Source of the DNA: Ralstonia sp. TCR112
Lineage (GTDB): Bacteria; Pseudomonadota; Gammaproteobacteria; Burkholderiales; Burkholderiaceae
Direction of reading: 5' to 3'
DNA length: 64,000 bases
Assembly: GCF_007997035.1 (NCBI RefSeq)
Contig: NZ_VOSS01000076.1
Span: 1 to 64,000, forward strand
The notes below the pieces were generated by a model. It was not told the DNA's origin. It saw only the letters and a program-made list of their open reading frames with translations, and ran no database searches. The position numbers and the translations under genes were made by a program. Shown piece after piece: positions 4,588-62,271 of this stretch (within the stretch, counting starts at the first letter, position 1; the number at the start of each line of letters is the position of its first letter).

Positions 4588-4601
4588 TTGAGGTGCATCA
4601 A
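4588..4601 (+). promoter_or_regulatory. FNR-type site upstream of the PHA synthase operon
   Basis: TTGAG-GTGC-ATCAA matches 9 of the 10 half-site bases of TTGAT-N4-ATCAA. A TCTAAT element at 4624-4629 is centred 32 bp downstream of the site centre, which fits a class II FNR promoter with transcription starting near 4636. That start favours ATG 4666 over TTG 4633 for phaC. Confidence 0.65.
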
Positions 4602-4665
4602 GTCCGGGCGGTAGCCCCTGGCATCTAATGGATTGCATATTTCGCAATCGTTTGACGCCCCGACC

Positions 4666-6414
4666 ATGCGCACCGCCCCCGTGCCGTCTTCGTTGACTGC
4701 TGAGCAGATCGACCAACCGTTTCACGCTGCGCTTGCCCGCGCCTCCAATTCGCTGTCGCTTGCATCGATGCAACTGGCGCTGCTCGACTGGGCGCTGCAT
4801 CTGGCCGTCTCTCCCGGCAAGCAGCTGGATCTGTACCGCTTGGCGCTGACGCAGGCCCAACAACTCGAGGGTTACATCCGGAACTGCATGGCGTCCGGCC
4901 CCCAGAACGCGTGTCTTTGCGTCCAGCCGCCGGCCCGCGACCGTCGTTTCTCTGCCGACGAGTGGCGCTTGTGGCCGTTCAACGTGCTGCATCAGGCCTT
5001 CCTCTTGACAGAACAATGGTGGGAGGCGGCGACGCGCGGCGTGTGGGGAGTCGCCAAACATCATGAGGACGTGGTCGCCTTTGCTGCGCGTCAGTGGCTC
5101 GACATGATGTCGCCGGGCAACCAATTGGCAACCAACCCGATTGTCCTGCGCCGGACCTTTGAACAGCACGGCACCAATCTCGTGCGCGGCGCGCTCAATG
5201 CGCTTGACGACCTGGAGCGCTCCTTGAGCGGCGCGCCCGCTGCCGGTACCGAACGCTTTATGGTGGGCCGCGACGTGGCCATCACGCCCGGCAAGGTGGT
5301 CCTGCGCAATCGGCTGATCGAGCTGATCCAGTACGCACCGGCCACGGGCAAGGTCCAGGCCGAGCCCATCCTGATCGTGCCGGCCTGGATCATGAAGTAC
5401 TACATCCTGGACCTGTCGCCGCAGAACTCACTGATCCGCTATCTGGTCGAGCAGGGCCATACCGTGTTCTGCATCTCCTGGAAGAACCCTGACGAGGCGG
5501 ATCGCGACCTCGACATGGATGACTACCTGAAGCTCGGCGTCTTTGCCGCGCTCGATGCCGTCAATGCCATCGTGCCGGGCCAGCGCGTACATGCGACCGG
5601 CTACTGCCTTGGGGGCACGCTATTGGCGATTGCCGCCGCTGCCATGGCACGCGATGGCGATGCGCGGCTGGCCTCCATGACGCTGTTTGCCGCCCAGACC
5701 GATTTTTGTGAACCGGGCGAACTGGGCCTGTTCATCGACGAGGCCCAGGTCAGCCTGCTTGAAGCACAGATGGAGCAGACCGGCTATCTGCGTGCCAGCC
5801 AGATGGCCGGGGCCTTCCAGATGCTGCGCTCGTACGACTTGTTGTGGTCGCGCCTGGTGGGCGAATACCTGCTGGGAGACCGCGCGCCCATGAACGACCT
5901 GATGGCCTGGAACGCCGATGCCACGCGCATGCCCGCGCGCATGCACAGCCAGTACCTGCGGCACCTGTTTCTGAACGACGACCTGAGCGAGGGCCGCTAC
6001 CCCGTCAACGGCAAGCCGGTGGCGCTCAACGATATCGATTTGCCCATCTTCGTGGTGGGCACGCTGACCGACCACGTGGCGCCCTGGCGCTCCGTCTACA
6101 AGCTGCATCACCTGACCGAGGCTGAGCTGACGTTCGTGTTGACCAGCGGCGGCCATAACGCCGGCATCGTGAGCCCGCCCGTCAACTCGCATCGGCGTTT
6201 CCAGATGCAGACACGCCATGCAGGCGAGACATCGGCGGCGCCGGATGATTGGCTGGCCTCGGCACCCGCCACAGACGGCTCTTGGTGGCCGGCGTGGCAT
6301 GCATGGCTCGTTGAACATGCCTCGGGCTCCGCAGTGGTGAAGCCGCCGAAGATGGGCGTTCCAGGATTCCCGCCATTGGCCGATGCGCCCGGCACCTACG
6401 TGCTGGAGAAATAG
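4666..6414 (+). CDS. phaC: class I-like PHA synthase (polyhydroxyalkanoate polymerase)
   Basis: About 582 residues, the usual class I length. The lipase-like box GYCLGG contains the nucleophilic Cys (about residue 314). The other catalytic residues are the Asp in VVGTLTDHVAPW and the His in LTSGGHNAG. The enzyme polymerises hydroxyacyl-CoA at the PHA granule surface. An in-frame TTG at 4633 would lie at or before the predicted FNR-dependent transcription start, so I use ATG 4666; no strong ribosome site is seen for either. The next gene begins immediately after its stop. Sharing an operon with an efflux system, a phasin and acyl-phosphate enzymes is unlike the usual phaCAB locus and suggests an accessory synthase for low oxygen. 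Confidence 0.9.
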   Translation: MRTAPVPSSLTAEQIDQPFHAALARASNSLSLASMQLALLDWALHLAVSPGKQLDLYRLALTQAQQLEGYIRNCMASGPQNACLCVQPPARDRRFSADEWRLWPFNVLHQAFLLTEQWWEAATRGVWGVAKHHEDVVAFAARQWLDMMSPGNQLATNPIVLRRTFEQHGTNLVRGALNALDDLERSLSGAPAAGTERFMVGRDVAITPGKVVLRNRLIELIQYAPATGKVQAEPILIVPAWIMKYYILDLSPQNSLIRYLVEQGHTVFCISWKNPDEADRDLDMDDYLKLGVFAALDAVNAIVPGQRVHATGYCLGGTLLAIAAAAMARDGDARLASMTLFAAQTDFCEPGELGLFIDEAQVSLLEAQMEQTGYLRASQMAGAFQMLRSYDLLWSRLVGEYLLGDRAPMNDLMAWNADATRMPARMHSQYLRHLFLNDDLSEGRYPVNGKPVALNDIDLPIFVVGTLTDHVAPWRSVYKLHHLTEAELTFVLTSGGHNAGIVSPPVNSHRRFQMQTRHAGETSAAPDDWLASAPATDGSWWPAWHAWLVEHASGSAVVKPPKMGVPGFPPLADAPGTYVLEK

Positions 6415-7929
6415 ATGCGTGTGGAGAAACAACGCCGGCAGCATGGCAGCTACGCAGGCACCCGCGCCGCCGCGATGGCCGCCGCCGCTGTGCTGGCCCT
6501 GTCGGCCTGCATCTCGATGGCGCCGCCTTACGAGGCGCCCGCGTTGCCTGTGGCCCAGCACTACGACACCGACGACGGCACGGACGGCCTGTCCGCCGCC
6601 GCCACCGGCTGGCAGGCGTACTTTACGGACACGCGCCTGCAGGCGTTGATTGCGCAAGCGCTGGAGAACAACCGTGACTTGCGCACTGCCGTGCTGCGCG
6701 TGGAAGAGGCGCGTGCCGCGTTTGGCATCCAGCGCTCGGAGTCTTTTCCGCACCTTGACGCGCAGGCCGGCGTTAGCCGCCTGAGCATTCCGGCGGACGT
6801 CAGCCCATTCGGCATGCCCATGCGTGTCACCCAGTACCAGGTGGGGGCCGGTGTCTCCAGCTGGGAGATCGATTTCTGGGGGCGCGTGCGCAACCTCAAC
6901 GACGCCGCTCTGGAAAGCTACGTAGCGTCCGACGCAGCGCGCCGCGCAGTCGCGCTTGGGTTGATCGCACAGGTGGCCGACAGCTATCTGGTCATGCGCG
7001 AACTGGACGAGCGCATCGCGCTGGCGCAGCAGACCGTCGACAGCCGCACCGAGACACTGCGCATCTTCTCGCGCCGGGTGGCAGTCGGGGCGACTTCACG
7101 ATTGAACCAAACGCAGGTCGAGACCCTGCTGACCCAGGCGCAGGCGCTGCTGACGCAACTGCGGCAGGCGCGCGACGTTCAGGCGCACGGCCTGGCCGTG
7201 CTTGTCGGCAAGCCCATTGACTTGCCACCGGTTGCCGAGCCGCTTGACGAGCGCCACATGCTGGCCGAGCTGCGCGCCGGTCTGCCTTCCGATCTCCTGA
7301 CGCAGCGCCCGGACATTGCAGCTGCGGAGCACCGGCTGCGGGCCGCGCACGCCAGCATCGGTGCGGCACGGGCGGCGTTCTTTCCGCGCGTGGCGCTGAC
7401 GGGCGCTTACGGCACCGTCGGCCCAGAACTGGGCAATCTGTTTGCACCCGGCACACGCGCCTGGATGTTTGCGCCGAGCATCAGCCTGCCGCTGTTTGAA
7501 GGCGGGAAGCTGCGCAGCAACCTCGACCTGGCAGAAGCCCGCCGGGACCTTGCCGTGGCGGCCTACGAAAAGACCGTGCAAGGCGCATTCCGCGACGTGT
7601 CCGACGCGCTGTCGGCACGCAGGTGGCTGGCCGAACAGCTCGACATTGCACAGGCCGCATTGGCCGCGCAGACCGAACGGGCGCGGCTGTCGCAACTGCG
7701 TTTCGACGCTGGAGCATCGACGTTCCTGGAGGTGCTCGACGCCCAGCGCGATCTGCTGGCCGCGCAGCAGCAACTGGTGCAAATGCGTCGCGCGCTTCTC
7801 TCGAGCCGCGTTGGCCTGTATGCGGCACTGGGCGGCGGCACGCAGGCCGTCGAATCCGCAACCGATCCGCAACCCCATCCTCTGAGCCTGACGCCGGCAC
7901 CGCGCGTATCGGGCCGAACAACACCATGA
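6415..7929 (+). CDS. NodT-family outer-membrane efflux lipoprotein
   Basis: A 504-residue protein with a type II signal and lipobox ending LALSAC near residue 28. Two repeats of the TolC-type outer-membrane efflux fold follow, each with long coiled-coil helices (for example EARRDLAVAAYEKTVQGAFR). It would form the outer-membrane exit duct for the HlyD/ABC system encoded next. Its ATG directly abuts the phaC stop and its own stop overlaps the next start (ATGA), so it is translationally coupled on both sides. Confidence 0.9.
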   Translation: MRVEKQRRQHGSYAGTRAAAMAAAAVLALSACISMAPPYEAPALPVAQHYDTDDGTDGLSAAATGWQAYFTDTRLQALIAQALENNRDLRTAVLRVEEARAAFGIQRSESFPHLDAQAGVSRLSIPADVSPFGMPMRVTQYQVGAGVSSWEIDFWGRVRNLNDAALESYVASDAARRAVALGLIAQVADSYLVMRELDERIALAQQTVDSRTETLRIFSRRVAVGATSRLNQTQVETLLTQAQALLTQLRQARDVQAHGLAVLVGKPIDLPPVAEPLDERHMLAELRAGLPSDLLTQRPDIAAAEHRLRAAHASIGAARAAFFPRVALTGAYGTVGPELGNLFAPGTRAWMFAPSISLPLFEGGKLRSNLDLAEARRDLAVAAYEKTVQGAFRDVSDALSARRWLAEQLDIAQAALAAQTERARLSQLRFDAGASTFLEVLDAQRDLLAAQQQLVQMRRALLSSRVGLYAALGGGTQAVESATDPQPHPLSLTPAPRVSGRTTP

Positions 7930-8998
7930 CGACGACTCCCCAACAACGATGGATTGCGCTGCTGGCGGCCGCCCTGGTGGCAGCCGGAGCGGCGTTCGCG
8001 TGGAAGACGCTTCGGCAAGAAGGTCCCGGCAAGGGCTTTGTGAGCGGCAACGGCCGCATCGAAGCCACCGAAATCGACGTGGCAACCAAGCTCCCCGGCC
8101 GCGTGCAGGACATCCTGGTGGACGAGGGCGACTTCGTGACGGCAGGGCAGCCGCTTGCGCACATGCAAGTGCAGACGCTGGAAGCGCAGCGCGACGAGGC
8201 TCTGGCGCGGCAGCAGCAATCGGTCTCTGCCGTGGCGAGCGCACAGGCGCAGGTGGCCGTGCGAGAAGCCGATAGGCAAGCGGCTCTCGCGCAAATTGCT
8301 CTGCGTGAGAGCGACCTCGATGCCGCGCAGCGCCGCCTGGCGCGCTCCGAGACGCTGTCGCACGAAGGGGCATCGTCAATGCAGGAGCTGGACGACGACC
8401 GCGCCCGCGTGCGCAGCGCCAAGGCCGCGCTGGTGGCGGCCCGCGCGCAAGCCGAGGCGGCGCAGGCAGCCGTATTGGCTGCGCGTACACAGGTGGCCGG
8501 CGCCGGTGCCACCGTCAAGGCGGCAGACGCCACCGTACTGCGCATCAAGGCCGATATCGACGACAGCGCCCTGACGCGCCGCGCGACGCCCGCGTGCAAT
8601 ACCGCATCGCCCAGCCCGGCGAGGTACTGGCCGGCGGCGGGCGACTGCTCAATCTCGTCGATCTGTCCGACGTCTACATGACCTTCTTCGTGCCGGAGAC
8701 CGACGCGGGCCGCATCGCCATGGGCAGCGAGGTGCGTATCGTGCTCGACGCAGCGCCGCAATACGTGATTCCGGCGCGCGTGTCGTTTGTCGCCAGCACC
8801 GCGCAATTCACGCCCAAGACCGTGGAAACGGCCAGCGAGCGCCAGAAGCTGATGTTCCGCGTCAAGGCGCAGATCGATCGCGATCTGCTGCGCAAGCACC
8901 TGAAGCTGGTGAAGACCGGCTTGCCCGGCGTGGCGTGGCTGAAGCTCGACGCGCAAGCCGAATGGCCGGCCAGCCTGGCGATCAAGGTTCCGCAGTGA
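7926..8998 (+). CDS. HlyD-family periplasmic adaptor, YhiI-like (frameshifted in this sequence)
   Basis: The N-terminal anchor ([18 protein letters not shown]) is followed by the biotinyl-lipoyl-like hairpin [20 protein letters not shown], a coiled coil and a beta-barrel. The frame breaks at about 8576 after [11 protein letters not shown]. The shifted frame resumes at once with [16 protein letters not shown] and runs to the stop at 8998. Adding one G to GACG at 8573-8576 gives a continuous reading, [15 protein letters not shown]. The rbbA-type gene starts at an overlapping GTGA. In E. coli the yhiI-rbbA-yhhJ operon has the same order. The substrate is unknown. Confidence 0.83.
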
Positions 8999-11778
8999 CC
9001 GCCTCTGCCGACCCATGCGCCTCGCCTGACGCGCGCCCGGCGTCGCCGGTGGCCAGCCTGGCCGGCGTGCGCCTGCGCTACCGCAAGACGCTCGCGCTGG
9101 ATGGCGTCACGCTCGACCTGCCCGCCGGCTGCATGGTCGGTTTGATCGGCCCGGACGGCGTTGGCAAGTCCAGCCTGCTGTCTCTCGTGGCGGGCGCCCG
9201 GGCCCTGCAGGAGGGCACTGTCCATGTGCTCGGCAGCGACATGAGCGACCGCCGGGCGCGCGCCGCGGTCGGCCCACGCATCGCTTACATGCCGCAAGGG
9301 TTGGGGCGCAACCTGTATCCCACGTTGTCGATCGAAGAGAACCTGCAGTTCTTCGGGCGCCTGTTCGGCCACGATGCAGCGGAGCGCCGCCGCCGCATCG
9401 ATGCACTCACGGCCAGCACCGGCCTGCGGGCGTTCCTCTCACGACCTGCAGGCAAGCTCTCGGGCGGCATGAAACAGAAGCTGGCGTTGTGCTGCGCGCT
9501 GATCCACGACCCCGATCTGTTGATTCTCGATGAACCGACCACCGGCGTCGATCCGCTTTCGCGCAGGCAGTTCTGGGACTTGATTGCCAGTATTCGCGCC
9601 GCGCGACCCGGCATGAGCGTGATCGTGGCTACCGCATACATGGAAGAGGCCGAGCGCTTCGACTGGCTGGTCGCCATGGACGCGGGGCGGGTGCTCGCCA
9701 CCGGCACGCCGGCCGAGCTGCGCAGCCGCGCCGGTGCCGATTCGCTTGAGGCCGCCTTCATCGCACTGCTGCCGCCAACGCGCCGACAGGGCCATCAGGC
9801 CGTGGTGGTGCCACCCCTCGTGGCTGGCGCAGAAGACGATGTGGCCGTGCAGGCGAGTGGCCTGACCATGCGCTTCGGCGACTTCGTTGCCGTCGACCAC
9901 GTCGACTTCCGCATCCGTCGTGGAGAAATCTTCGGCTTTCTCGGCTCCAACGGCTGCGGCAAATCGACCACCATGAAGATGCTCACCGGCCTGCTGCCCG
10001 CCACCGAAGGGCAGGCCTGGCTGTTCGGCCATCCGGTGGACCCGAAGGACATCGACACACGCCGCCGCGTGGGCTACATGTCGCAGGCGTTCTCGCTGTA
10101 TGGCGAGCTGACCGTGCACCAGAACCTCGTCCTGCATGCGCGGCTGTTCCAGGTGCCCGAGCAGGAAGTGCAGTCGCGCGTGGCAGAGATGCTGACCCGG
10201 TTCGGGCTGCAGGACGTGTCCGACAGCCTGCCCCAGAGCTTGCCGCTGGGCATGCGGCAGCGCCTGTCACTGGCCGTGGCGATGGTGCACAAGCCCGAGT
10301 TGCTGATCCTGGACGAGCCGACCTCCGGCGTGGACCCGGTCGCACGCGACATGTTCTGGCGCCTGATGATCGACCTCGCGCGGCGGGATCGCGTGACCAT
10401 CTTCATCTCCACGCATTTCATGAACGAGGCCGAGCGATGCGACCGCATCTCGCTCATGCATGCGGGCCGTGTGCTGGTGAGCGACGCGCCCGCGGCGCTG
10501 GTGCATGCCCGGGGTACAGAGACGCTGGAGCAAGCGTTCATCGCTTATCTGCAGGAGGCGGCCGAAGCGTCTGCGGGAGCCGCCGAGTTTGCCGCGCCGC
10601 TGCCGGAGCGCGCGGCGCCAACCCCTGCGCCTACCGGCATGTCGGCCGGGCGCCGCTTCAGTCTGGCGCGTGCGATGAGCTATTCGTTGCGCGAGGCCCT
10701 GGAACTGCGCCGTGACCGCGTGCGCGCCACGCTGGCGCTGCTGGGCACGGCCATCCTCATGTTCATCATCGGATACGGCATCAGCCTCGATGTGGAGAAC
10801 CTGACCTACGCCGTGCTCGACCGTGACCAGACCGTGCTTTCACACGACTACACGCTCAACCTGGCGGGCTCGCGTTATTTCATCGAAAAACCCCCGATTC
10901 GCGACTACGCTGAGTTGGACCGCCGCATGCGTAACGGCGAGTTGTCGCTGGCAATCGAAATTCCGCCTGGCTTTGCGCGCGATGTGGAGCGCGGCACGGC
11001 CGTGCAGATCGGGGCCTGGGTGGACGGCGCCATGCCCACCCGCGCGGAAACCGTGCGCGGTTACGTGCAGGCCATCCACCAGCTCTGGCTGGCAGATGCG
11101 GCCGTGCACCGGCTGGGAGTGCGCCTGGCGGCGCCCAGCAGTGTTGAAACGCGCTATCGCTACAACCCCGACGTGAAAAGCCTGCCTGCCATGGTGCCCG
11201 CCGTGATTCCAATGCTGCTGATGATGATTCCTGCCATGCTGGCGGCGTTGTCCGTGGTGCGTGAAAAGGAGCTGGGCTCCATCATCAATTTCTACGTGAC
11301 GCCGGTCACGCGGGCGGAATTCGTGCTCGGCAAGCAGGCGCCGTACATCGTGCTGGCCATGCTGAACTTCTTCTTGCTGGCGCTGCTGGCGGTGACAGTG
11401 TTCGGTGTGCCGATCAAGGGCAGCTTTGCAACGCTCGCGCTAGGGGCGCTGATTTTCGTGACGTGTTCGACGGGTTTCGGGCTGTTTGCGTCGACCTTCA
11501 CGCAAAGCCAGATCGCAGCCATGTTCGTCACCATGATCGGCACGATCATTCCGTGCGTGCAATTTGCAGGACTGCTCAATCCGGTGTCGTCGCTGGAAGG
11601 GACGGGCGCTGTGATCGGGCGCGTGTATCCGGCCACGCATTTCCTGACGATCAGCCGCGGCGTGTTCAGCAAGGCGCTGGATGTGGGCGCGCTGGGCAGC
11701 GCCTTCTGGCCGCTGCTGGCGGCGGTGCCGTTCATCCTGGGCGCCACCTTGCTGATGCTGCGCAAGCAGGATCGGTAG
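8995..11778 (+). CDS. rbbA: RbbA-type ABC fusion: two ATPase domains plus permease
   Basis: About 927 residues from a GTG at 8995 that overlaps the adaptor stop. Two ABC domains come first. Domain 1 has Walker [10 protein letters not shown], signature LSGGM and Walker [14 protein letters not shown]. Domain 2 has GSNGCGKST and [13 protein letters not shown], but its signature position reads LPLGMRQ instead of LSGGQ, so it may be degenerate. An ABC-2 permease region follows, with one membrane segment near [17 protein letters not shown] and about five after residue 720. The architecture matches E. coli RbbA/YhiH. Together with its neighbours it would form an export complex across both membranes. 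Confidence 0.88.
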
Positions 11779-11790
11779 GAGCACCACGCC

Positions 11791-12942: not shown

Positions 12943-12951
12943 GGAGCCAAC

Positions 12952-13464
12952 ATGGATACACCCGCCAACGTTCCGCTCGCGCTCCAAAAGGCGCAGCTCG
13001 CATTCGGACTGCAGACGTTGGGTCTGCTGAAGGCAACGCGACAGCGCTGGTATGAACTCGGCGCCGACCTGCTTGCCGCAGACGTGGCCCGCACGGAATC
13101 TGCGCTGGCCGACCTGCAAAACGTCGAGGAGTGGAACGCGTTTGCAGCACTGCTGCCGAACGTTTTCTGGCAGGGCAGCGAGCGCGCCATGGATGTGCTG
13201 CAAGGGGTGCTGCAAACGGCCATCTCGAACCAGTCGAGCTTCGTGGCGGATTACCAGCGCGTCATGCTGGAATGGCAGCAGGCCTCCGTCCGAGCCCTGA
13301 GCACGGCCGGCAATGCCATGCCGGTCCACACGGCGCTGCAGGGCATGCTGTCAACGTGGGGCGTGCCGGGCGATGCATGGGTCCGCCCCGCAAGCGAGCC
13401 GTCGAACCCGAATCTTCTGCGTGCCCCCGGCAAGGGCAACGGACAACTCCGCAAAGCTTCCTGA
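12952..13464 (+). CDS. phasin family protein (PHA granule-associated)
   Basis: A 170-residue, largely helical protein with the phasin pattern LQTLGLLKATRQRWYELGADLL and amphipathic repeats to about residue 130, then a Pro/Asn-rich tail. It has a good ribosome site (AAGGAGCCAAC-ATG). Phasins coat PHA granules and control their size. Location in the same operon as the PHA synthase supports this role. It is distinct in sequence from the two later phasins at 41141 and 47164. Confidence 0.8.
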   Translation: MDTPANVPLALQKAQLAFGLQTLGLLKATRQRWYELGADLLAADVARTESALADLQNVEEWNAFAALLPNVFWQGSERAMDVLQGVLQTAISNQSSFVADYQRVMLEWQQASVRALSTAGNAMPVHTALQGMLSTWGVPGDAWVRPASEPSNPNLLRAPGKGNGQLRKAS

Positions 13465-13473
13465 CGAGCGCAC

Positions 13474-16097: not shown

Positions 16098-16220
16098 CAA
16101 GTCTTCTTGTCGAAAAAACCGGATGGGAGAGATGCTGTCGGCGCCTGCGGGCGTTGCATTTATTTTACATAATCCTAATTACACGACATCTGGATGTCAA
16201 AGCTACGTGCTGATGCGCCG

Positions 16221-16234
16221 TTGACATGCATCAA
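16221..16234 (+). promoter_or_regulatory. FNR-type site upstream of the copper ATPase
   Basis: TTGAC-ATGC-ATCAA matches 9 of 10 half-site bases. TACATT at 16256-16261 is centred 31 bp downstream, giving an expected start near 16269. It lies upstream of the separate CueR-type promoter in the same 320-bp gap. Confidence 0.65.
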
Positions 16235-30872: not shown

Positions 30873-31171
30873 ACCTGACTCCAATCCTCGGAGGCAGCGC
30901 TGCGGGCGCCACCCCTGATTGCGTCGCATACGCGGAGCAACCTAAAGATCAACCGTCGCTCAGCGCTTGCATGCGACGCGAGCGACAAACGCTTGCGGTG
31001 GATGGCCAATGGAATGCGGAGTTGCTACCGCCGTGTAGCGTTGGGCGTGCGCAATGCGGCAAAAGACAGCGCTTCTGACACATTCATCATCGCCAATGCA
31101 GACACGAAGGGCTTGTTGCAAGTCAACAAGCTGCGGAGTCACGCGCACGCCGGCCGTCAACCGGGTACGGA
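30873..31171 (-). other. upstream region of the metal efflux operon, no gene seen
   Basis: 299 bp between the adaptor gene and a small membrane-protein gene, both on the minus strand. I see no convincing coding frame, FNR site or MerR-type dyad. A promoter for the efflux operon is expected here but cannot be placed. Confidence 0.4.
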
Positions 31172-36318: not shown

Positions 36319-36655
36319 GACTGCCTCCTGATGAGTGGTCCCCGGGATCTCGGGGTGAGCACATTCATCGTGGCACGACAGTTTCGGAGCGCCTTGCGGC
36401 AGATCAACGGCGGCGCACGGCAGGCGTCGGACCGGGCGTCGCGCGGCTCGTATCAAGCACATCGCTTCCGAGGTACCGCCCCCGGTGTCAGGCTTTCCTG
36501 ACATGGGAACCCGCCGCTCCGACAGCATTCTCAGCGCAGCCTGCATGACGCCGGCGAATGCGCTGCCAATACTGGTGACACGCCAACAAGCAAGCAGCGC
36601 CTTGTCGATTCGCCCCGGAATACGACAACGCCCAGCCAGTACAACGGAGCGCGCC
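36319..36655. other. 337-bp divergent intergenic region
   Basis: This separates hsp20 (minus) from the LRAT-fold gene (plus). It contains one FNR-type site (36394-36407) placed for hsp20. I see no coding frame and no recognisable promoter for the rightward gene; the ribosome site before 36656 (ACGGAGCGCGCC) is ordinary. Confidence 0.5.
36394..36407 (-). promoter_or_regulatory. FNR-type site upstream of the hsp20 operon
   Basis: Read on the minus strand it is TTGAT-CTGC-CGCAA: one perfect half and 3 of 5 in the other. Its centre is 82 bp from the hsp20 ATG, leaving a leader of about 40 bases. The -10 at the expected distance (CACGAT) is weak. Confidence 0.5.
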
Positions 36656-37415: not shown

Positions 37416-37429
37416 TTGATCCGCATCAA
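37416..37429 (+). promoter_or_regulatory. perfect FNR palindrome upstream of ftsH
   Basis: TTGAT-CCGC-ATCAA is a full consensus match. It is centred about 86 bp before the GTG start of ftsH. The -10 at the expected distance (GAACAT, 37451-37456) is weak, so promoter strength is uncertain, but this is the best single site in the window. Confidence 0.7.
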
Positions 37430-40438: not shown

Positions 40439-41074
40439 TGCACACCTCCAGGAGGCACAGCGGTCAGCCGTTGTTCAGGCGGCACATCGGCGTTTTGATC
40501 CAGCGCCCCTCACCATGTCATGCATGTCTTGCAGGGCATTGAGAAGCGCGACACGTACATCCAGGTCCGACGCCCGGTCCGTTGCAAGCTCATGCCCCTG
40601 CTCCTCCACCTCGACGTGCGCGAAATAGGGGCCGCAAAGCGGCTCGGCTCGACTCAGAAGCCAATCTCACACTTGCACCTTTCGACGCTGCATGGAAGAC
40701 CGTTGGGCCTGACGGCAAACCGCCTCACGGCTTCCTTGATCGCATTCAACAGCAATGCGGCACCAAAGCGACCTGACCTATTAGCCTAATTTGCGCTACG
40801 TCCAGCGTTTTGACGTGCCTCAACAACGCAATACTGCTCGCGCCACTCGCCCACCGGTGGCCGTATCCATCGACATGATTGCGGCCTGCCGGGCATGGAC
40901 ATGTGTATGAGCACCTCCGCCGCTGCTTGCGTCATGCGGTACCGCGCAACGCGGCCTTGCGGATGGCGTTCTCAAGTTCCTTGACCGCGCTTTCTTTCGG
41001 GTTTTCAGCCCTGGCAGCAAACCGCGTGAGGAACGCCGTGCCATCAGAGGCCCATGCGACGCCGATCTGGAGAT
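40439..41074 (-). other. long intergenic region with coding remnants
   Basis: Over 600 bp with no intact gene. On the minus strand, one frame ending at 40475 reads GPYFAHVEVEEQGHELATDR then LLNALQDMHDMV. Another, ending at 40932, reads LQIGVAWASDGTAFLTRFAA then KESAVKELENAIRKAALRG. Both look protein-like, both lack a start codon and both begin right after a stop, so they may be tails of decayed genes. I recognise neither. A TTGAT half-site lies at about 40495. Confidence 0.35.
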
Positions 41075-41088
41075 TTGCGTCAGGTCAA
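41075..41088 (+). promoter_or_regulatory. variant FNR-type site upstream of the second phasin
   Basis: TTGCG-TCAG-GTCAA is a weak match (7 of 10). TACCCT at 41110-41115 is centred exactly 31 bp downstream, and the same variant half-sites occur before the third phasin at 47060, which supports function. Confidence 0.5.
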
Positions 41089-41629: not shown

Positions 41630-41819
41630 CGGCTCGTCGTCGCGAAAGAAGATACGCACGCCAGGAAGCGATGTGCCAGGCACGCGTCGACGGTGAAGAG
41701 GAGCTTGATTCCTGTCAACGAGGCTGTCTCACAGGTGCCTATTCTTGAAATAGCCGTCGCCACGCACACGCGGTAGACGGAAACCATTGGATCGACTGGA
41801 TTGTTTGCAGGAGAAAAAA

Positions 41820-42473: not shown

Positions 42474-42487
42474 TTGATCCGAGTCAA
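42474..42487 (+). promoter_or_regulatory. FNR-type site upstream of the short HPF gene
   Basis: TTGAT-CCGA-GTCAA matches 9 of 10. AACAAT at 42509-42514 is centred 31 bp downstream. The expected start near 42522 leaves a 40-base leader to ATG 42562. Confidence 0.65.
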
Positions 42488-44217: not shown

Positions 44218-44264
44218 GGCATCCACCTCACAGAGCTGAAAAGTCACCGAACATGTGTCGCCAT

Positions 44265-45302: not shown

Positions 45303-45357
45303 GGGAGTCCCCAAGGAAGACGATGACTCCATGCTAGGCAACCGCCCTGCGCGCACG

Positions 45358-45371
45358 TTGATCTGCGTCAG
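45358..45371. promoter_or_regulatory. FNR-type site in a divergent gap
   Basis: TTGAT-CTGC-GTCAG (8 of 10). Leftward, TAGCAT (45331-45336) is centred exactly 31 bp away for the alcohol dehydrogenase. Rightward, GATATT (45392-45397) is 30 bp away for the kinase chimera at 45430. One palindrome could serve both genes. Confidence 0.62.
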
Positions 45372-45429
45372 GGCGCATGTCGGCATGCGCGCGATATTGA
45401 TGTTCAATGTCCGGAGATGAAACCCGCGT

Positions 45430-47016: not shown

Positions 47017-47059
47017 AACGAAGCACCAAAGCGATGGCGCTTCACGCGCGGCCGGCTGT

Positions 47060-47073
47060 TTGCGCCACGTCAA
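47060..47073 (+). promoter_or_regulatory. variant FNR-type site upstream of the third phasin
   Basis: TTGCG-CCAC-GTCAA (7 of 10), with TACGCT at 47095-47100 centred exactly 31 bp downstream. The half-sites are identical to those before the paralogous phasin at 41141. Confidence 0.52.
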
Positions 47074-47163
47074 CGCACCCAGCCGCAGAGGGCCTACGCT
47101 GCATATGGATTCCCCATTCGGCGGCCCGCTCACCTGTCCGCCAAGACCCCACCGGAGAACGTA

Positions 47164-47652: not shown

Positions 47653-47738
47653 TCGACGAACCTCGGTAGTGCCCAGCCAGCACCAAACACGTAGCGCACC
47701 TGCCGGCTGGCTGCGCCTCACTTCCGGATATCCGCTCC

Positions 47739-51718: not shown

Positions 51719-51966
51719 CGCTAATCTCCTTGCGCCCAGGTGTATGCGCGGCGAGCTGCGACCCTCGCATCATCGGCCGGCCCCACGACCACCCGCTTGC
51801 GTTTCAGAATGGCTTGCACATGGCTCCCGTTTGGCCATGCACGGCAGACAGGGGCGCGCCCCCGGGGTGAAATCAACCAGCCGATGCATGTGCATCAACG
51901 ATAGCGATTCGGGGCTGGCGGCCCTTGATGTGTCGCAAGGCCGCGCCGAGTCCCGCAGGAAATGCG
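51719..51966 (-). other. mgtA upstream region with two TTGAT half-sites
   Basis: On the minus strand two perfect TTGAT half-sites occur 22 bp apart (TTGATGCACATGCA at 51885-51898 and TTGATTTCACCCCG at 51863-51876), each with a poor second half. No -10 sits at the class II distance. The link to FNR control is weak. Confidence 0.3.
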
Positions 51967-52614
51967 CTACAGCGTGTCGTCGTCCGAGAACAAGCGATGA
52001 CGTATTGCGTAACGCACAAGGGCGGCTTCGCTGGAGAGCTGCAGTTTGTCCATCAACCGCATCTTGTAGGTGCTGACCGTCTTGGCGCTCACACACAGGC
52101 TGGTGGCGATCTCGGTCAGAGGCTCGCCCCGCACCAGGCGGCGATAGACCTCCATCTCGCGGTCGGACAGGCGCGTGTGGGCCGCCTCTTCACTGGGCTC
52201 GCCCAGGCTGTGCGCGAGCTTCTCCGCCATGGGCGGACTGACATAGGTGCCGCCGTTCGCCACCTTCTGCAGCGCGGTGACGAGTTCGGTCGCCGCGCTT
52301 TCCTTCGTCAGGTAGCCGGCGGCCCCGGCACGAAAAGCCCGCGCCACGTACTGTTCTTCCGCGTGCATGGTCAACACCAGCACACGCACCCTGGGGTGAT
52401 CGTCATGCAACTGACGAAGCAGCTCGAGCCCGCTGCGCCCCGGCATGGAAAGATCGAGCACGAGCACCTGCGGTTGATGGTCGCGCACCAGTTGCACGAC
52501 CTGCGTGCCGTCGGAGGCTTCGCATGCGACTTCAAAATCTCCAGCGCGCTCCAAGATATGACGCACGCCATCGCGCATCACGGCATGATCGTCGGCGATC
52601 ATCACGCGAATCAT
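51967..52614 (-). CDS. NarL/FixJ-family response regulator
   Basis: 215 residues. Receiver domain with the acidic pair (MIADDHAVMRDG), the phospho-acceptor Asp in VLVLDLSMPGRSG and a Lys in YLTKESAATE. The C-terminal LuxR-type helix-turn-helix is LSDREMEVYRRLVRGEPLTE and LCVSAKTVSTYKMRLMDKL. Its ATG overlaps the stop of the sensor kinase (ATGA), so they form a two-component pair. Targets unknown. Confidence 0.92.
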   Translation of the reverse strand: MIRVMIADDHAVMRDGVRHILERAGDFEVACEASDGTQVVQLVRDHQPQVLVLDLSMPGRSGLELLRQLHDDHPRVRVLVLTMHAEEQYVARAFRAGAAGYLTKESAATELVTALQKVANGGTYVSPPMAEKLAHSLGEPSEEAAHTRLSDREMEVYRRLVRGEPLTEIATSLCVSAKTVSTYKMRLMDKLQLSSEAALVRYAIRHRLFSDDDTL

Positions 52615-53956
52615 GTCCGCGCCTCCTCAGTGGTTTCGTGCACGGCCGGAAAACTTACGTTCAAGCGGAAGCCGCCGCCTGGCGAGTGTGTGATCGTCGC
52701 TTGCCCGCCAAGTAGCCGGGCGCGCTCGCGAATGCCAAGCAACCCCAGCGGCTTGCGCTCCCCCGCCGCGGGAGGTGCGCCGCTCCAGCCATGTCCATTG
52801 TCTTGAATGGACAGTTCCCACACGCCATCCTGCTGCGAGAACTCGATCTCGACGCGCGTTGCGTCGGCATGGCGCACGACATTGTTGAGTGCCTCCTGCA
52901 CGATCCGGAAGACCGAGATGGCGGCGCGCTCGTTCATCGCCAGCTCTTGGGCACGCACGGTGACGACCAGCCCAAAGCGCTGCGAAAATTCTTGGCCAAC
53001 CATTCGATGGACGGCACAAGCCCCAGCTCGTCGAGCAACGGCGGTCGAAGATCGGCCGAGATCTGCCGCACGGCGGCGATCGTCTCGTCGATCACGTGTT
53101 GCATTGCCTGGGTCTGGTCGATCAGCGTCTTGTCGCTCCGTGCCGCCTGCAGATCGGCCGCCAGCAGAGAAATGTCCATCTTGAGCGCGCTCAGACGTTG
53201 GCCAAGATCGTCGTGCAGTTCTCGGGCGATGCGGTGCCGCTCCTCCTCGCGCGTGGACAGGATGCTGTCCGACAGATGCTGGAGTTCTTCCTGCGAGCGC
53301 CGCAGCGCCGCTTCCGCGCGGACGCGCTCCGTGGTGTCGCGCAGCATCACCGTGAAGAGCTTGCCGCCGTTGACTTCGATCTGTGAAATCGATGCTTCGA
53401 TCGGAAACTCGCGCCCATCGGTATGCAGAGCAAACAGAGGGCGCTGCTTGCCCATCTGCCGCTCCGATACGCCCGTCACGCCGAAGCGCCGCACATGCGC
53501 TTCGTGTGCGCCGCGAAACCGCTCGGGAATAAAGTCCGACAGCGGACGGCCGATGGCGTGGCGCGCGGGGCATCCGAACAGTGTCTCCGCCATGGGATTG
53601 AAGAGCACGATGCGCTGAGCGTCATCGACCGAAATGATGGCTTCCATGGACGAGCGGATGATGCCGGCCAGCCGGGCTTCGCTCTTTTCCAGGTATGTCA
53701 GATCCCGCGCGACGGCCGCGCGCAGCTTCCGGAGCCGCAGCCAATAGAACACCAGTGCGACAACCGCAGCGATACTTGCCGAGGCCAGCAAAATGAACGG
53801 AGCATCGCCGGCCCGGAGTGCGAACGCCAACCGAGCCACCGTTGCAGCCAGCAGCAAAACGGCCAGCACCCCCACCACAAGTTCGGCTGAGGTGGATTGC
53901 AACTGCAATAGTCGCCTGTGCGTTGCCTTCGAAGATGGAGTGTCTTGGTCCGCCAC
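52611..53956 (-). CDS. membrane PAS histidine kinase, HisKA_3/NarX-like (frameshifted in this sequence)
   Basis: About 448 residues when joined. There are two membrane segments (LVVGVLAVLLLAATVARLAF and ILLASASIAAVVALVFYWL), then a PAS domain (IISVDDAQRIVLFNPMAETL) and HisKA_3 with ERHRIARELHDDLGQRLSAL. The frame breaks after SIEWLAKNF at about 52988. The other frame continues SQRFGLVVTV, VFRIVQEALNNVVRHADAT (N-box) and LGLLGIRERARLLGG. One extra T in the TTTT run (plus-strand AAAA 52985-52988) repairs it. Partner of the overlapping response regulator. Confidence 0.85.
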
Positions 53957-54253: not shown

Positions 54254-55054
54254 ATGATTCCGCGCACGATAGAGTCGCCCACGCCCGTCGAAACCCGCCA
54301 CCCCGCTGCCCTTCCCCAGCTCCGGCTCGTCCGTGACGCAACACAGGCCCGCCAGACAACGCCGCTGATCCCGAGCAGCCAGTGCGCCAATTGCATGATG
54401 CACTGGGCCTGCATCGCCAGCGCTGTACCGACCGCACAACGCGAACAGCTGGATCAGATGGTGCACACCTGGCGCAAGATCCCCAAGGGCGAAGCACTGT
54501 TCCGCGCGGGTGACAGCTTCCACGCGCTCTATTCCATCCGCTCGGGTTCGTTCAAGACCGTGCTTTCGCACCCCAACGGCGCAAACCACGTCAGCGGCTT
54601 CCAGCTGCCCGGCGAAACGCTCGGCCTCGACGGCATCGCCACTGATCGCCACAGCTGCGATGCGATTGCACTGGAAGACAGCACGGTTTGCTCCATGCCG
54701 TTCCATTGCATTGAGGACCTGTGCCAGGACATCCGCCCGCTGCAGCATCGCCTTCACCAATTGATGGCCGAAGAGATCGTGCGCGGGTCGGGGCTCATGC
54801 TGCTGCTCGCCGGGCTGAGTGCCGAAGCGCGCGTGGCGACCTTCCTGCTGAACCTCTCCTCGCGCATGCAAGACCGCGGCTACTCGGCCTCCAGCTTCAC
54901 GCTGCGCATGACCCGCGAAGAAATCGGCAGCTACCTTGGCATGCAGCTCGAGACCGTCAGCCGTGCACTGTCGAGGTTCCAGCGCGAAGGCTGGATCGTT
55001 GTGAGCGGCAAGAACATCGAACTGACCGACAGGGCCGCACTGACCGAGCTTTGA
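54254..55054 (+). CDS. fnr: FNR-type oxygen-sensing transcription regulator (Crp/Fnr family)
   Basis: About 266 residues from ATG 54254 (GGAG 7 bases upstream). Cysteines C44, C47 and C53 (SSQCANCMMHWAC) plus C146 (STVCSMPF) match the four [4Fe-4S] ligands of E. coli FNR. The cNMP-type beta-roll follows (FRAGDSFHALYSIRSGSF). The helix-turn-helix REEIGSYLGMQLETVSRALS carries the E..SR residues that read TTGAT-N4-ATCAA. When oxygen is absent it should dimerise and activate the sites listed in this window. A terminator follows its stop. Confidence 0.93.
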   Translation: MIPRTIESPTPVETRHPAALPQLRLVRDATQARQTTPLIPSSQCANCMMHWACIASAVPTAQREQLDQMVHTWRKIPKGEALFRAGDSFHALYSIRSGSFKTVLSHPNGANHVSGFQLPGETLGLDGIATDRHSCDAIALEDSTVCSMPFHCIEDLCQDIRPLQHRLHQLMAEEIVRGSGLMLLLAGLSAEARVATFLLNLSSRMQDRGYSASSFTLRMTREEIGSYLGMQLETVSRALSRFQREGWIVVSGKNIELTDRAALTEL

Positions 55055-56830: not shown

Positions 56831-57484
56831 CTAGGAACCTACCCACATGCGGTCGACGACGGCACGCACGCCTGGCGCATCCCATGCAGCCTCGCGGGCC
56901 GCACGGCACTCGTTGAGGTTGCGCAGCGGCCCGTACAGCGTGACCGTCCCGTCCGTCACGGAAACATTCAGGCGCGAGGCGTCCACCGCAGCCAGGCGTT
57001 GCAGTGCCTTTGCGATGCGATCGCTCAGATCGGCCGGCCCGGAGGCGGCGCGCAATGTCAGCGCATTGGCGACAGACTTCACGCCGCGCACCCTGCGCAC
57101 CGTGTCCAACGCCGCACGGCGCTGGAAGTCCTGGTCGACTTCACCGCGCAGCGTCACGGCGCCCTCTTCGACGCTAATGCGGATGGCATCCGCCGGCACG
57201 GATACATTCCAGTGCAACGCGCTGCTGATTGCCTGCGCAATGTCTTCATCGGGGCGCACCATATCCGCCGGCATCCGTACATCCACATGGATGACAAGCG
57301 CGGTCACGCCGGCAACGCGCCGGATCGCCTCTTCCGCGGCATGCTTGTCGGCGAACGTGTCGACGCGGCCGGAGAGCGTGACGACGCCGTCCTTGGCCTG
57401 AACCGCAAAGCGACTGGCATCCACCGCCGGATCCCATTGCAGTTCTTCTTCGACATCGTGCTTGAGCTGGATATCGTTCTTCAT
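56831..57484 (-). CDS. triple BON-domain protein
   Basis: 217 residues beginning MKNDIQLKHDVEEELQWDPA. Three BON units end in VQAKDGVVTLSGRVDT, ISVEEGAVTLRGEVDQ and VSVTDGTVTLYGPLRN. It is parallel in size and order to the gene at 55167 (MKSDLGIKQDVNDELLWEPA), so a duplication is evident. Cytoplasmic. It follows the tandem Usp gene by 34 bp. Confidence 0.85.
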   Translation of the reverse strand: MKNDIQLKHDVEEELQWDPAVDASRFAVQAKDGVVTLSGRVDTFADKHAAEEAIRRVAGVTALVIHVDVRMPADMVRPDEDIAQAISSALHWNVSVPADAIRISVEEGAVTLRGEVDQDFQRRAALDTVRRVRGVKSVANALTLRAASGPADLSDRIAKALQRLAAVDASRLNVSVTDGTVTLYGPLRNLNECRAAREAAWDAPGVRAVVDRMWVGS

Positions 57485-57518
57485 GGCGATCTCATCAGGT
57501 TCAGTCGCGGCCCAGGGC

Positions 57519-58358
57519 TCAGTGCGACATCAGCGCCGGTACGGTCATCGTCTTCAGCAGGGTGCGCGTCACGCCGCCCAGCACGAGTTCGCGCAGGCGG
57601 CTGTGCCCGTAGGCGCCCATCACGATCAGATCGGCATTGAAGTCGGCCGCCCGCGAGAGCAGCAGCTCGCCCACGGCGGTGTCGGAATCCGCGCAGTCGG
57701 CCTCTTCAACCGTCGTTTGAATGCCGCGCGCATTCAGCGCACGCGCCACCTGGCCCACGGTGGTTTCTTCGGCCCAGTGCTTTGGCTGCCTGCTGGTGAT
57801 CTGCAGCACGTGCACGTTGGCACCCTTCATGATCGGCATGGCGTCGTGCACCGCACGGGCGGCTTCGCGGCCGCCGCTCCAGGCGACCAGTACACGCTTG
57901 GGCAATGCGGTGAAGTTGCCCGCATACGGCACAACCAGTACAGGGCGGCCCGACTCCAGGATCAGGGTTTCCACAAAGTCGCCGGCGATGAATTCATCCG
58001 GATCATCGTGGTTTCGTTGTCCGACCACGAGAAGATCGCTCTCTCGCGCCTCGCGCAGCACGAGCGCCACGGGGTCGCCCTCCACTGCGCGCCACTCCGT
58101 TTCCACCCCAAGGCTCTCCGTCGCCTGGCGAAAGCGCGCATGTACGGCGTCCCGAACGCTGTCGCGCCGGATACGGTCTTCTTCCAGATAGCGGGCTGCG
58201 TTCTCCATCATGTAGAACCAGCTGAGACTGGGCGCAAAGCTCGCATAGATGCCGACGAGTTTGGCGCCATGCGCCTGCGCGTACTGGGCTGCAAGGTTGA
58301 GACGGTGCATGGCGCGCTCGCTGCGGTCCAGATGCACCATCACACTGGCGTAACTCAT
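57519..58358 (-). CDS. tandem-domain universal stress protein
   Basis: 279 residues from ATG 58358. Domain 1 (SVMVHLDRSERAMHRLNLAA, with LLVVGQRNHDDPDEF) lacks the usual G-2x-G-9x-G-S/T loop. Domain 2 keeps a complete one (LIVMGAYGHSRLRELVLGGVTRTLL), so only domain 2 is likely to bind ATP. A Usp of this kind helps survival of starvation and anoxia. The next gene upstream is a single-domain Usp on the same strand. Confidence 0.88.
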   Translation of the reverse strand: MSYASVMVHLDRSERAMHRLNLAAQYAQAHGAKLVGIYASFAPSLSWFYMMENAARYLEEDRIRRDSVRDAVHARFRQATESLGVETEWRAVEGDPVALVLREARESDLLVVGQRNHDDPDEFIAGDFVETLILESGRPVLVVPYAGNFTALPKRVLVAWSGGREAARAVHDAMPIMKGANVHVLQITSRQPKHWAEETTVGQVARALNARGIQTTVEEADCADSDTAVGELLLSRAADFNADLIVMGAYGHSRLRELVLGGVTRTLLKTMTVPALMSH

Positions 58359-58398
58359 GGTCAGATCCTGGTGTCGTGTCAGAGGGGGAACTACCCGG

Positions 58399-58899
58399 TC
58401 AGGCAATGACGGCATTGGCCAGCGGTTCGGTAGCTTCGCGCGCTGCTTCCGTGGGCACCGCGCGGACGAGCAGCACCGGCAGCGTGCTGCGGCGTACAAC
58501 GCTCTCAGCCACGCTGCCCAGGAACAAGCGCTGGAAGCCGCGACGCCCATGCGTGCCCAGCACCAGGGCCTGGGCGCCGACGTTCTGTGCCGCCTGTTCG
58601 ATGGCGGTGCCGATGTCGAAGGTTCCGATGGGGTCGTCCACCACCACGCTGTGGACATGTACACCGGCCTTTTCGGCCTTGTCCCGCGCGTCGGCAACGA
58701 TTTGCTTGCCTTGTTTGACCAGTGCCTCGGTAAAGGCGCCGACATCGATATAGCCAACGTCGTACATCAGATACGAGTTGTCGATCACGTGCGCGATGAC
58801 CAGCTCAGAGCCGAGCTTTTTTGCCAGCTGGATGGCCTCGTCCAGCGCGCGCTCCGCCGTAGGACTGCCATCCACGGCTACCAGAATCCTGTCGTACAT
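58399..58899 (-). CDS. universal stress protein, single domain
   Basis: 166 residues from ATG 58899 with a strong GGAGG ribosome site. Start MYDRILVAVDGSPTAERALD; ATP-binding loop LVLGTHGRRGFQRLFLGSVA followed by ESVVRRSTLPVLLVR. First gene of a minus-strand operon: usp, usp, BON, flavodoxin, TraR-like, BON. An FNR-type site is centred about 88 bp upstream. Confidence 0.9.
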   Translation of the reverse strand: MYDRILVAVDGSPTAERALDEAIQLAKKLGSELVIAHVIDNSYLMYDVGYIDVGAFTEALVKQGKQIVADARDKAEKAGVHVHSVVVDDPIGTFDIGTAIEQAAQNVGAQALVLGTHGRRGFQRLFLGSVAESVVRRSTLPVLLVRAVPTEAAREATEPLANAVIA

Positions 58900-58980
58900 G
58901 ATGTGCCTCCATCTCGAATCCGTCGTCCGCCCCACACGGGGTTGCTGGATTCCATGTTGGACCACCATGCGGATCAGCCC

Positions 58981-58994
58981 TTGATTTACATCAG
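58981..58994 (-). promoter_or_regulatory. FNR-type site for the Usp-BON operon
   Basis: TTGAT-TTAC-ATCAG matches 9 of 10. On the minus strand the element 31 bp away reads CAACAT (58954-58959). The expected start leaves a leader of about 47 bases to the usp ATG. Confidence 0.65.
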
Positions 58995-59027
58995 CGTTTG
59001 GCTTGCCGGCGCCTCAGGCAATGCCAA

Positions 59028-59041
59028 TTGATCTGCCTCAA
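59028..59041 (+). promoter_or_regulatory. distal FNR-type site upstream of the CBS gene
   Basis: TTGAT-CTGC-CTCAA (8 of 10). TAGACT at 59063-59068 is centred exactly 31 bp downstream on the plus strand, so it would give a long-leader transcript for the CBS gene. Confidence 0.58.
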
Positions 59042-59119: not shown

Positions 59120-59133
59120 TTGTGCGGGATCAA
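59120..59133 (+). promoter_or_regulatory. proximal FNR-type site upstream of the CBS gene
   Basis: TTGTG-CGGG-ATCAA: perfect right half, 3 of 5 in the left. The near-consensus TATAGT at 59155-59160 is centred exactly 31 bp downstream. Leader to ATG 59188 is about 20 bases. Confidence 0.6.
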
Positions 59134-61096: not shown

Positions 61097-61250
61097 TCAG
61101 TGAAGTCGGATAGTCGTTGCAATGCACCCATTCAGTATTGCGCGCGGCAACGCTTTCCGATTGATCTGGCGCAGTCGATGGTCGACTGTCGGGCAGCCGT
61201 TCCGTGGTGCTGACCGATACTGTTCAGGCACGCCATTCTCGGAGACAGCG

Positions 61251-62261
61251 ATGTCTGAATCGATGCAGGCCATGGTGATGGAAGGCGCGGGAAAGCCGTT
61301 GAGCTGGCGTGAAGTGCCGCTGCCCGCCCCTGGCCCGGGAGAAGTCCGGATCGCCGTCTCGGTATGTGGTGTCTGCCGTACCGATCTGCATATCGTGGAC
61401 GGCGAACTGACCGCCCCGAAACCATCGCTCATTCCCGGTCACGAGATCGTGGGCGTCGTCGAGTCATGCGGCGAAGGCGTGACAACACCCGCTCCAGGCG
61501 AGCGCGTCGGCGTGCCGTGGCTCGGCTGGACATGCGGCGTCTGCCCGTACTGCCTGCACGGCCGCGAAAACCTGTGCGACCACCCTGCCTTCACCGGCTA
61601 TACGCGCGACGGCGGGTATGCCCAATACGTCGTCTGCGACGCGCGATACTGCCTGCCGATTCCAGCGCGGTACGACGATGCCCACGCCGCGCCGCTGCTC
61701 TGTGCCGGGCTGATCGGCTACCGCACGCTGCGCATGGCCGGCGATGCGCGCCGGATCGGCATCTACGGCTTTGGCGCGGCGGCCCACCTCATCACGCAGA
61801 TTGCCGTGGCAGAGCAGCGCGAAGTCTTCGCCTTCACCCGCGCCGGCGACACAGCAGCCCAGCAACTTGCGCTCGACACCGGCGCCAGCTGGGCAGGCGC
61901 AGGCGACGCGCCCGCCCCAGAACCGCTTGACGCCGCGCTGATCTTCGCGCCCATCGGCGCGCTCGTGCCGCAGGCGCTGAAAGCCGTGGTCAAGGGCGGC
62001 CCGGTGGTCTGCGGCGGCATCCACATGAGCGACATCCCCACGTTTCCGTACCGGCTGCTTTGGGAAGAACGCAAGCTCGTGTCGGTGGCAAACCTGACGC
62101 GCGCCGATGGAATCGCCCTCATGCGCACCGCCGCAGAGGTGCCCTTGCGCGTTCACGTCACGCCCTATCCGCTGCAAGACGCCAACACCGCCTTGGAAGA
62201 CCTCCGCGCGGGGCGCGTGGCGGGCGCTGCCGTCCTGCAGGTGGCGTCGAAAGACCTTTGA
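61251..62261 (+). CDS. zinc-dependent alcohol dehydrogenase (AdhA/AdhP-like)
   Basis: 336 residues from ATG 61251 (GGAGA upstream). Catalytic zinc: CGVCRTDLHIVDGEL and IPGHEIVG. Structural zinc: CGVCPYCLHGRENLC. The cofactor loop IGIYGFGAAAHLI is slightly unusual. It resembles the ethanol-type alcohol dehydrogenases in the zinc-binding ADH family. A weak FNR-like site lies at 61161-61174 (TTGATCTGGCGCAG), with no -10 at the right distance. The stop overlaps the FNR site of the usp gene. Confidence 0.88.
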   Translation: MSESMQAMVMEGAGKPLSWREVPLPAPGPGEVRIAVSVCGVCRTDLHIVDGELTAPKPSLIPGHEIVGVVESCGEGVTTPAPGERVGVPWLGWTCGVCPYCLHGRENLCDHPAFTGYTRDGGYAQYVVCDARYCLPIPARYDDAHAAPLLCAGLIGYRTLRMAGDARRIGIYGFGAAAHLITQIAVAEQREVFAFTRAGDTAAQQLALDTGASWAGAGDAPAPEPLDAALIFAPIGALVPQALKAVVKGGPVVCGGIHMSDIPTFPYRLLWEERKLVSVANLTRADGIALMRTAAEVPLRVHVTPYPLQDANTALEDLRAGRVAGAAVLQVASKDL

Positions 62262-62271
62262 CGCGCATCAA
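62258..62271 (+). promoter_or_regulatory. FNR-type site upstream of the third Usp gene
   Basis: TTGAC-GCGC-ATCAA (9 of 10), overlapping the stop codon of the alcohol dehydrogenase. TACGCT at 62293-62298 is centred 31 bp downstream. The leader to ATG 62342 would be about 36 bases. Confidence 0.68.

Follow-up and report, generated by a model that had tools for sequence, protein, structure and literature searches.

The window analyzed here, a stretch of 64,000 nucleotides from Ralstonia sp. TCR112 (contig NZ_VOSS01000076.1, positions 1 to 64,000), is very probably the Ralstonia counterpart of the low-oxygen-activated (lxa) islands of Burkholderia, with class II-type FNR promoters arranged around an fnr gene and a two-component system. 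This kind of locus is already known from Burkholderia, and the Ralstonia block is a further member. The lxa locus of B. cenocepacia J2315 has been described as about 50 genes, BCAM0275A-BCAM0323, and is also reported from B. contaminans and B. multivorans (PMC4981469). An earlier note on this DNA had proposed a clustered FNR-type regulon with class II-like promoters and an internal fnr gene, spread over about 58 kb. The density, phase and conservation of the sites bore out that proposal, while the idea itself was not novel, given the lxa precedent. New in this analysis were the site density, the phase, the footprints in related genomes, and the presence of related blocks on plasmids of about 270 kb.

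All 12 of the 14-mers that had been claimed as FNR-type boxes were present at their positions in the window. Compared with the consensus TTGATNNNNATCAA, one had no mismatch, six had one, three had two, and two (41075 and 47060) had three, although these last two were among the sites with the best conservation support. The list was real but incomplete, as sites at 40810 (minus strand), 41705 (plus strand), 51925 (minus strand) and probably 31113 (minus strand) had been overlooked. Ten of the 108 places in the 5.44-Mb genome with at most one mismatch to TTGATNNNNATCAA were in the window, which makes up 1.2% of the genome bases (1.3 expected; Poisson probability ~1e-6), and the reversed pattern, used as a control at the same threshold, was found at 13 places in the genome. 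The strict core TTGA-N6-TCAA occurred nine times in the 64 kb and nine times in 780 kb elsewhere, a ratio of 12 (p ~2e-6). This background consisted of 39 of 40 genome stretches of 20 kb each; the fortieth (L087), which contained no strict core, was set aside as part of the window's own contig. No background tile held more than two strict cores, and the 8 kb from 40001 to 48000 in the window held four. The reversed strict core was found 0 times in the window and 32 times in the 780 kb. With up to two mismatches, the 23 matches in the window exceeded those in every one of 100 dinucleotide shuffles (mean 10.6). In a scan with a position weight matrix, enrichment climbed with stringency, from 1.3-fold at score 6 to 12-fold at score 14; because this matrix was built partly from sites in the window, the claim of density rests on the fixed patterns. 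The density signal is in the good sites, not in the loose ones.

The seven -10-like hexamers quoted in the earlier note were each correct and each centered exactly 31 bp from the center of the box, six on the plus strand and one, at 45331, on the minus strand. The same phase appeared when sites were taken without selection. All 18 core sites in the window, defined as TTG-N7-TCAA or TTGA-N7-CAA, were used regardless of the genes around them, and nine of the 18 had TANNNT at exactly 31 bp in either orientation, compared with three TANNNT at the 25 remaining distances (20 to 45) combined. With the looser hexamer NANNNT, 13 of the 18 sites had a match at 31, while at the other distances the matches averaged 0.8 and never exceeded 4. 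Equal density of phased sites in random stretches, which the earlier note had named as evidence against its proposal, was not found: the 47 core sites in the 780 kb elsewhere had three TANNNT hexamers at 31 and ten at the other 25 distances. In the corresponding locus of each of six related genomes there were 4 to 13 hexamers at 31 and 0 to 4 at the remaining distances together. At sigma-70 promoters, a -10 element 31 bp from the center of a box puts that box near -41. Because the hexamers lie at this distance, the boxes are predicted to be centered near -41.5, over the -35 region, which is the class II layout.

Conservation was examined in those six genomes, five of named Ralstonia and one labeled 'Burkholderiaceae bacterium 26', which belongs to the same genus by its genome listing. 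Pairing each phased site with each genome gave 54 combinations, of which 38 aligned and 16 were dropped, including all six for the site at 16221. Across the 38 aligned pairs, the eight half-site positions agreed with the window in 302 of 304 cases, and the hexamer kept its T, A and T in 108 of 111. Identity was lower in the 21-bp spacer (582/787), in the 20 bp upstream of the box (546/760), and in the 20 bp past the hexamer (630/740). Because the half-sites and hexamer were nearly invariant next to a drifting spacer, the box and hexamer seem to be held by selection while the sequence between them drifts. Both elements were kept in 6/6 relatives at 36394 and 58981, and the half-site positions in 6/6 at 47060 and 62258. 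The site and hexamer at 37416, and the 14-mer at 31113 with its GATGAT at 31, were kept in 4/6, and the half-sites at 4588 in 3/6, in each case all of the relatives that align there. Both of the divergent hexamers at 45358 were kept exactly in 4/6 relatives, and the hexamer at 42474 varied among relatives. The phased site at 16221 aligned in 0/6 relatives, and because of this the ATPase gene that follows it, at 16417, may have been added recently.

The fnr gene (54254..55054, plus strand) encodes a protein of 266 amino acids of the Crp/Fnr family, with Pfam matches to HTH_Crp_2 and cNMP_binding. The earlier claim that its product has four Fe-S cysteines and an E..SR helix was confirmed by alignment with solved FNR chains. 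The protein has CX2CX5C and a fourth cysteine, all four of which aligned, and its recognition helix has E-T-x-S-R (LETVSR, compared with VETISR in solved FNR); a role in FNR for the glutamate, serine and arginine of this helix is described in PMC4505428. The fnr gene was 78-94% identical in eight records, seven of named Ralstonia and one of 'Burkholderiaceae bacterium 26', and a ninth match, in a Bradyrhizobium metagenome-assembled genome, was 33% identical. Among the genomes listed, fnr was found in 16/16 of the genus, with 75-95% identity in the other 15, though the listing covers 20 of the 131 genomes without a match, so that a genome of the genus lacking fnr is possible. Of 299 genomes sampled across the family, 168 had a match at 1e-60. 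Adjoining fnr on the minus strand is a two-component system (51967..53956), identified by Pfam as a LuxR-type response regulator and a PAS/HisKA_3 kinase, and a relative of the response regulator was found in 13 of 18 cuts around FNR matches outside Ralstonia. The histidine kinase (52611-53956) is split over two frames, as are the RND pump (26676-29791) and HlyD (29788-30929) genes; the RND pieces are in one frame in one relative (L068), and sequence errors in the 292-contig assembly are a possible cause.

The gene content of the window was of the lxa type by product name, with universal stress proteins, FtsH-like and PfkB proteins, PhaC and Pta, cation ATPase, a two-component system, and an internal FNR. 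The lxa locus contains the FNR protein BCAM0287, which is reported as 17-fold induced at low oxygen, and an FNR-box-like motif accompanies many of the genes induced at low oxygen (PMC4505428). A motif of this type likewise lies ahead of many genes in the window, where fnr is also near universal stress protein genes. BCAM0287 has been named a putative lxa regulator and adjoins the response regulator BCAM0288 (PMC4981469, Table 2). The names shared with that table include universal stress proteins, alpha-crystallin heat shock protein, acetate kinase, PhaC-type polymerase, phosphate acetyl/butyryl transferase, zinc alcohol dehydrogenase, metallo-beta-lactamase-type protein, cell-division-type metallopeptidase, phosphofructokinase, cation ATPase, cytochrome b561, and a CRP/FNR regulator beside a response regulator. 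RND lipoprotein, HlyD and ABC genes are shared with the lxa loci of B. contaminans and B. multivorans, not with J2315, as those loci are presented there. Unlike the known loci, the window is from another genus and has a different gene order. In the lxa table, no match was seen for the phasin-like, HPF-like, nitroreductase, DksA-like, CBS and MgtC/DUF4010 genes or for the MaoC-Pta and ATPase-hemerythrin fusions, though many of its entries are 'hypothetical', so these differences may reflect naming. The locus is described as patchy among strains (PMC4981469) and as needed for survival without oxygen in B. cenocepacia (PMC9733578 / PMC3759415 / PMC6127331). No title among the papers listed (titles and starts of abstracts) names lxa in Ralstonia or on a plasmid, and Sass 2013, the original description of lxa, may already give the box-to-hexamer spacing or Ralstonia homologues.

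Two other systems offer comparisons. Herbaspirillum seropedicae also has several FNR paralogues, and the targets reported for its Fnr1 and Fnr3 include polyhydroxybutyrate genes, a phasin, universal stress proteins and an alcohol dehydrogenase, with a class II site at -42 in the fnr1 promoter; it differs in that the locus tags given for the targets are dispersed, and not all targets adjoin fnr1 as ompW1 and fixNOP do (PMC5934665). Judging from the locus tags given in that source, H. seropedicae would appear to be without such a block. The DosR regulator of Mycobacterium tuberculosis is a response regulator, not an FNR, and no homologous locus is claimed. Its regulon is similar in being concerned with survival of hypoxia, with 48 genes that include 10 universal stress proteins (PMC9733578 / PMC3759415 / PMC6127331).

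Related loci were sought in other genera using 49 cleaned protein queries from the window, counted once per target place; weak cross-hits, such as those of ABC and outer-membrane proteins, still contribute to these counts. Ten cuts of 35-40 kb around FNR matches in other genera had matches to 4 to 20 of the 49 window proteins, with the most in G303 (20), G246 (15) and G298 (14). In six of the ten, core sites numbered above 17 per 100 kb, compared with 6 in the Ralstonia background, and the number of hexamers at exactly 31 was 0 to 8 per cut. Of the hexamers at the 16 core sites in one 50-kb stretch of the 278-kb plasmid of Cupriavidus sp. USMAHM13, 14 were at 31 and 3 elsewhere, and two stretches of this plasmid matched 14 of the 49 window proteins; its annotation includes 'BCAM0308 family protein', ppsA, phosphofructokinase, Hsp20, CBS, and nicotinate phosphoribosyltransferase. 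From a megaplasmid of Cupriavidus oxalaticus, a 50-kb cut matched 19 of the 49, with 10 hexamers at 31 and 2 at other distances. The 271-kb plasmid pOLGA1 of Paraburkholderia phytofirmans has, interspersed with transposase genes, universal stress proteins, FtsH, PfkB, ppsA, BON, a two-component system and fnr; it matched 10 of the 49 and was weakly phased, with 8 hexamers at 31 and 9 at other distances in two stretches. A Burkholderia stagnalis cut showed neither feature, with 5 of the 49 window proteins and two core sites, none of which was phased.

Several observations weigh against an lxa-type block under its own FNR, or narrow what can be said of it. Boxes with up to two mismatches were hardly denser in the window (0.36/kb) than in a 400-kb sample of the genome (0.32/kb), and matching this loose was discarded as evidence because of that lack of enrichment; the unusual density claimed earlier therefore holds for strict and near-consensus boxes and fails at this threshold. 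No TANNNT-phased site was found between 18.7 and 35.9 kb, a central part of the window some 17 kb long, where 31113 was the sole candidate. In four of the ten cuts from other genera (G246, G023, G105 and G014), the hexamers at the other 25 distances together outnumbered those at 31. Density and phase are therefore not general to all FNR neighborhoods. The likeness to the J2315 lxa locus is one of product names, not of J2315 sequence, and the cuts around the best FNR match in one B. cenocepacia and one B. multivorans record each matched only 6 of the 49 window proteins, though these cuts are perhaps not lxa. Upstream of fnr no convincing box was found with the position weight matrix (best score 5.8 in the window), and a score of 10.4 was reached at one place in one of the six relatives, so autoregulation of fnr was not supported. 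The genome also encodes two further FNR-type proteins, on contigs C216 and C282, which are 41% and 34% identical. The similar density of loose matches is the one result that a chance or base-composition artefact would account for, and we give that explanation a negligible probability in the face of the strict-core density, the phase peak, the footprints, and the absence of the reversed core from the window. It is possible, if somewhat doubtful, that the class II promoters are real and that their main activator is the C216 or the C282 paralogue or a heterodimer, with the gene at 54254 tuning them or serving other targets. Both additional proteins have CX2CX5C and a cysteine at the fourth place, Fnr1 and Fnr3 of H. 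seropedicae are reported to split and share promoters, possibly as heterodimers (PMC5934665), and three candidate regulators of lxa have been proposed in Burkholderia (PMC4981469); against this, the fnr gene of the window lies inside the cluster and was found throughout the listed genomes of the genus. The description of fnr as the cluster's own regulator is unproven given the two paralogues and the lack of a convincing site at fnr.

Whether such a block is a physically assembled island, as the earlier note suggested, is a separate question, for which there was partial support from an inverted block in two relatives and from the related gene sets on plasmids. The alternative, a cluster of co-regulated chromosomal genes of the ordinary kind, neither mobile nor assembled, has some standing but is not what we would expect. 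A tRNA search found none in the window, G+C content was fairly even (62-67%), and fnr was present in each genome of the genus among the matches listed. However, the phaC-to-ackA block (4536-16098; L081/L082, L084), the 4.5-16 kb part of the window, was inverted relative to its surroundings in two relatives, G007 and G008, which suggests modular assembly; several stretches failed to align in single relatives; and the 271- and 278-kb plasmids (L131-L134) that bear lxa-type gene sets also bear transposase or recombinase genes. A broader proposal, which we offer tentatively, is that lxa-type blocks are portable survival islands of the Burkholderiaceae that would move with an fnr and a two-component system of their own, plasmids of about 270 kb being among the carriers, and would recruit new cargo genes behind a single promoter design (FNR box, 31 bp, -10) usable by any resident FNR. 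If this were true, an aerobe carrying an lxa-type island would gain durability in the absence of oxygen.

For the window as an lxa-type block, the following mechanism is proposed. As oxygen falls, an FNR-type protein would keep its iron-sulfur cluster and dimerize, and the dimer would bind 14-bp boxes whose centers lie about 41 bp before the transcription starts. At this position it would contact RNA polymerase as a class II activator and take the place of the -35 element, while the -10 would be kept at its 31-bp distance from the center of the box. About 17 promoters, at 16 sites of which one is divergent, would be switched on in this way, giving storage polymer proteins (PhaC, phasin-like), enzymes of acetate metabolism (Pta, AckA), a chaperone (Hsp20), a protease (FtsH), a ribosome hibernation factor, universal stress proteins, alcohol dehydrogenase, sugar kinase and cation ATPases, with an RND pump as a possible further product. 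The predicted outcome is survival without oxygen, not growth. This reading would extend to Ralstonia a survival locus studied in Burkholderia, and the promoters of the block likely to be under selection could be picked out from sequence alone. The 31-bp phase together with the conserved half-sites may provide a simple rule for finding regulon members in related genomes, and the plasmid-borne relatives raise the question of whether survival without oxygen is a trait that can be acquired.

Fifteen of the sites were used in a search for start codons that gave 16 promoter assignments; 31113 was outside that set. The distance from the predicted transcription start to the first in-frame start codon, a rough choice that favors short distances, was 9 to 56 bp in 13 of the 16 and 148, 172 and 337 bp in the others. 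The hexamers given here are at 31 bp unless otherwise stated. Sites on the plus strand with TANNNT were 16221..16234 (TACATT), with its predicted transcription start 148 bp before the P-type ATPase with an HMBD domain; 41075..41088 (TACCCT), ahead of a phasin-like protein with a Pfam match below the cut-off; 41705..41718 (TATTCT), ahead of a small protein without a Pfam match; 47060..47073 (TACGCT), ahead of a phasin-like paralogue without a significant Pfam match; and 62258..62271 (TACGCT), ahead of a universal stress protein (62342-62797). The CBS-domain gene at 59188 has two predicted promoters, a distal one with the site 59028..59041 (TAGACT) and a proximal one with 59120..59133 (TATAGT), both on the plus strand. 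On the minus strand, 40810..40823 (TAGGCT) faces a PfkB-type kinase whose first start is 337 bp away, and 51925..51938 (TATCGT) faces a cation-transporting ATPase whose first start is 172 bp away.

At several sites only NANNNT was found at this distance. These were 37416..37429 (plus strand, GAACAT), the perfect FNR box, ahead of an FtsH-like protease; 42474..42487 (plus strand, AACAAT), ahead of a gene like that of the ribosome hibernation factor (S30AE family); 36394..36407 (minus strand, CACGAT), ahead of the small heat-shock protein HSP20 (36318-35896); 58981..58994 (minus strand, CAACAT), which precedes minus-strand universal stress protein genes at 58935-57519; and the candidate 31113..31126 (minus strand, GATGAT), towards the HlyD/RND genes (30929 downwards). 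Plus-strand open reading frames at 57462-58409 and 58357-59031 were rejected as genes, having no Pfam match and Usp domains on the opposite strand. The site at 45358..45371 is divergent, with GATATT, again only NANNNT, on the plus side towards an AAA_33 kinase and TAGCAT on the minus side towards the zinc alcohol dehydrogenase. Sites with TANNNT at 31 on both sides were seen at three loci of other genera (L108:7531, L109:18650 and L119:12582). The plus-strand site at 4588..4601 has ATCTAA at 31 and TCTAAT at 32 and precedes the phaC gene run (4666-16097). Among phased sites of the seven Ralstonia loci, the imperfect half-site was upstream in 34 and downstream in 7, compared with 2 and 5 elsewhere. 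This asymmetry was dropped as a mark of a heterodimer, as the Ralstonia sites counted upstream and downstream come down to about 6-7 and 3 distinct ones (grouped by eye).

By Pfam, the phaC run encodes PhaC, an outer-membrane factor, HlyD, an ABC transporter, MaoC-Pta, and AckA. The region from 18.7 to 35.9 kb contains an epimerase, a PAS kinase, a hemerythrin-fused ATPase, cytochrome b561, the RND pump, and thymidine-phosphorylase-like, PRPP-synthase-like and beta-CASP proteins. There were no matches to Rfam in the window at the gathering threshold. Two of the encoded proteins are fusions: a MaoC-like domain is joined to phosphate acetyl/butyryl transferase (13474-14919), and a P-type ATPase is joined to a hemerythrin domain (22486-24816), the latter with relatives of 58-59% identity in G303, G298 and C. 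oxalaticus.

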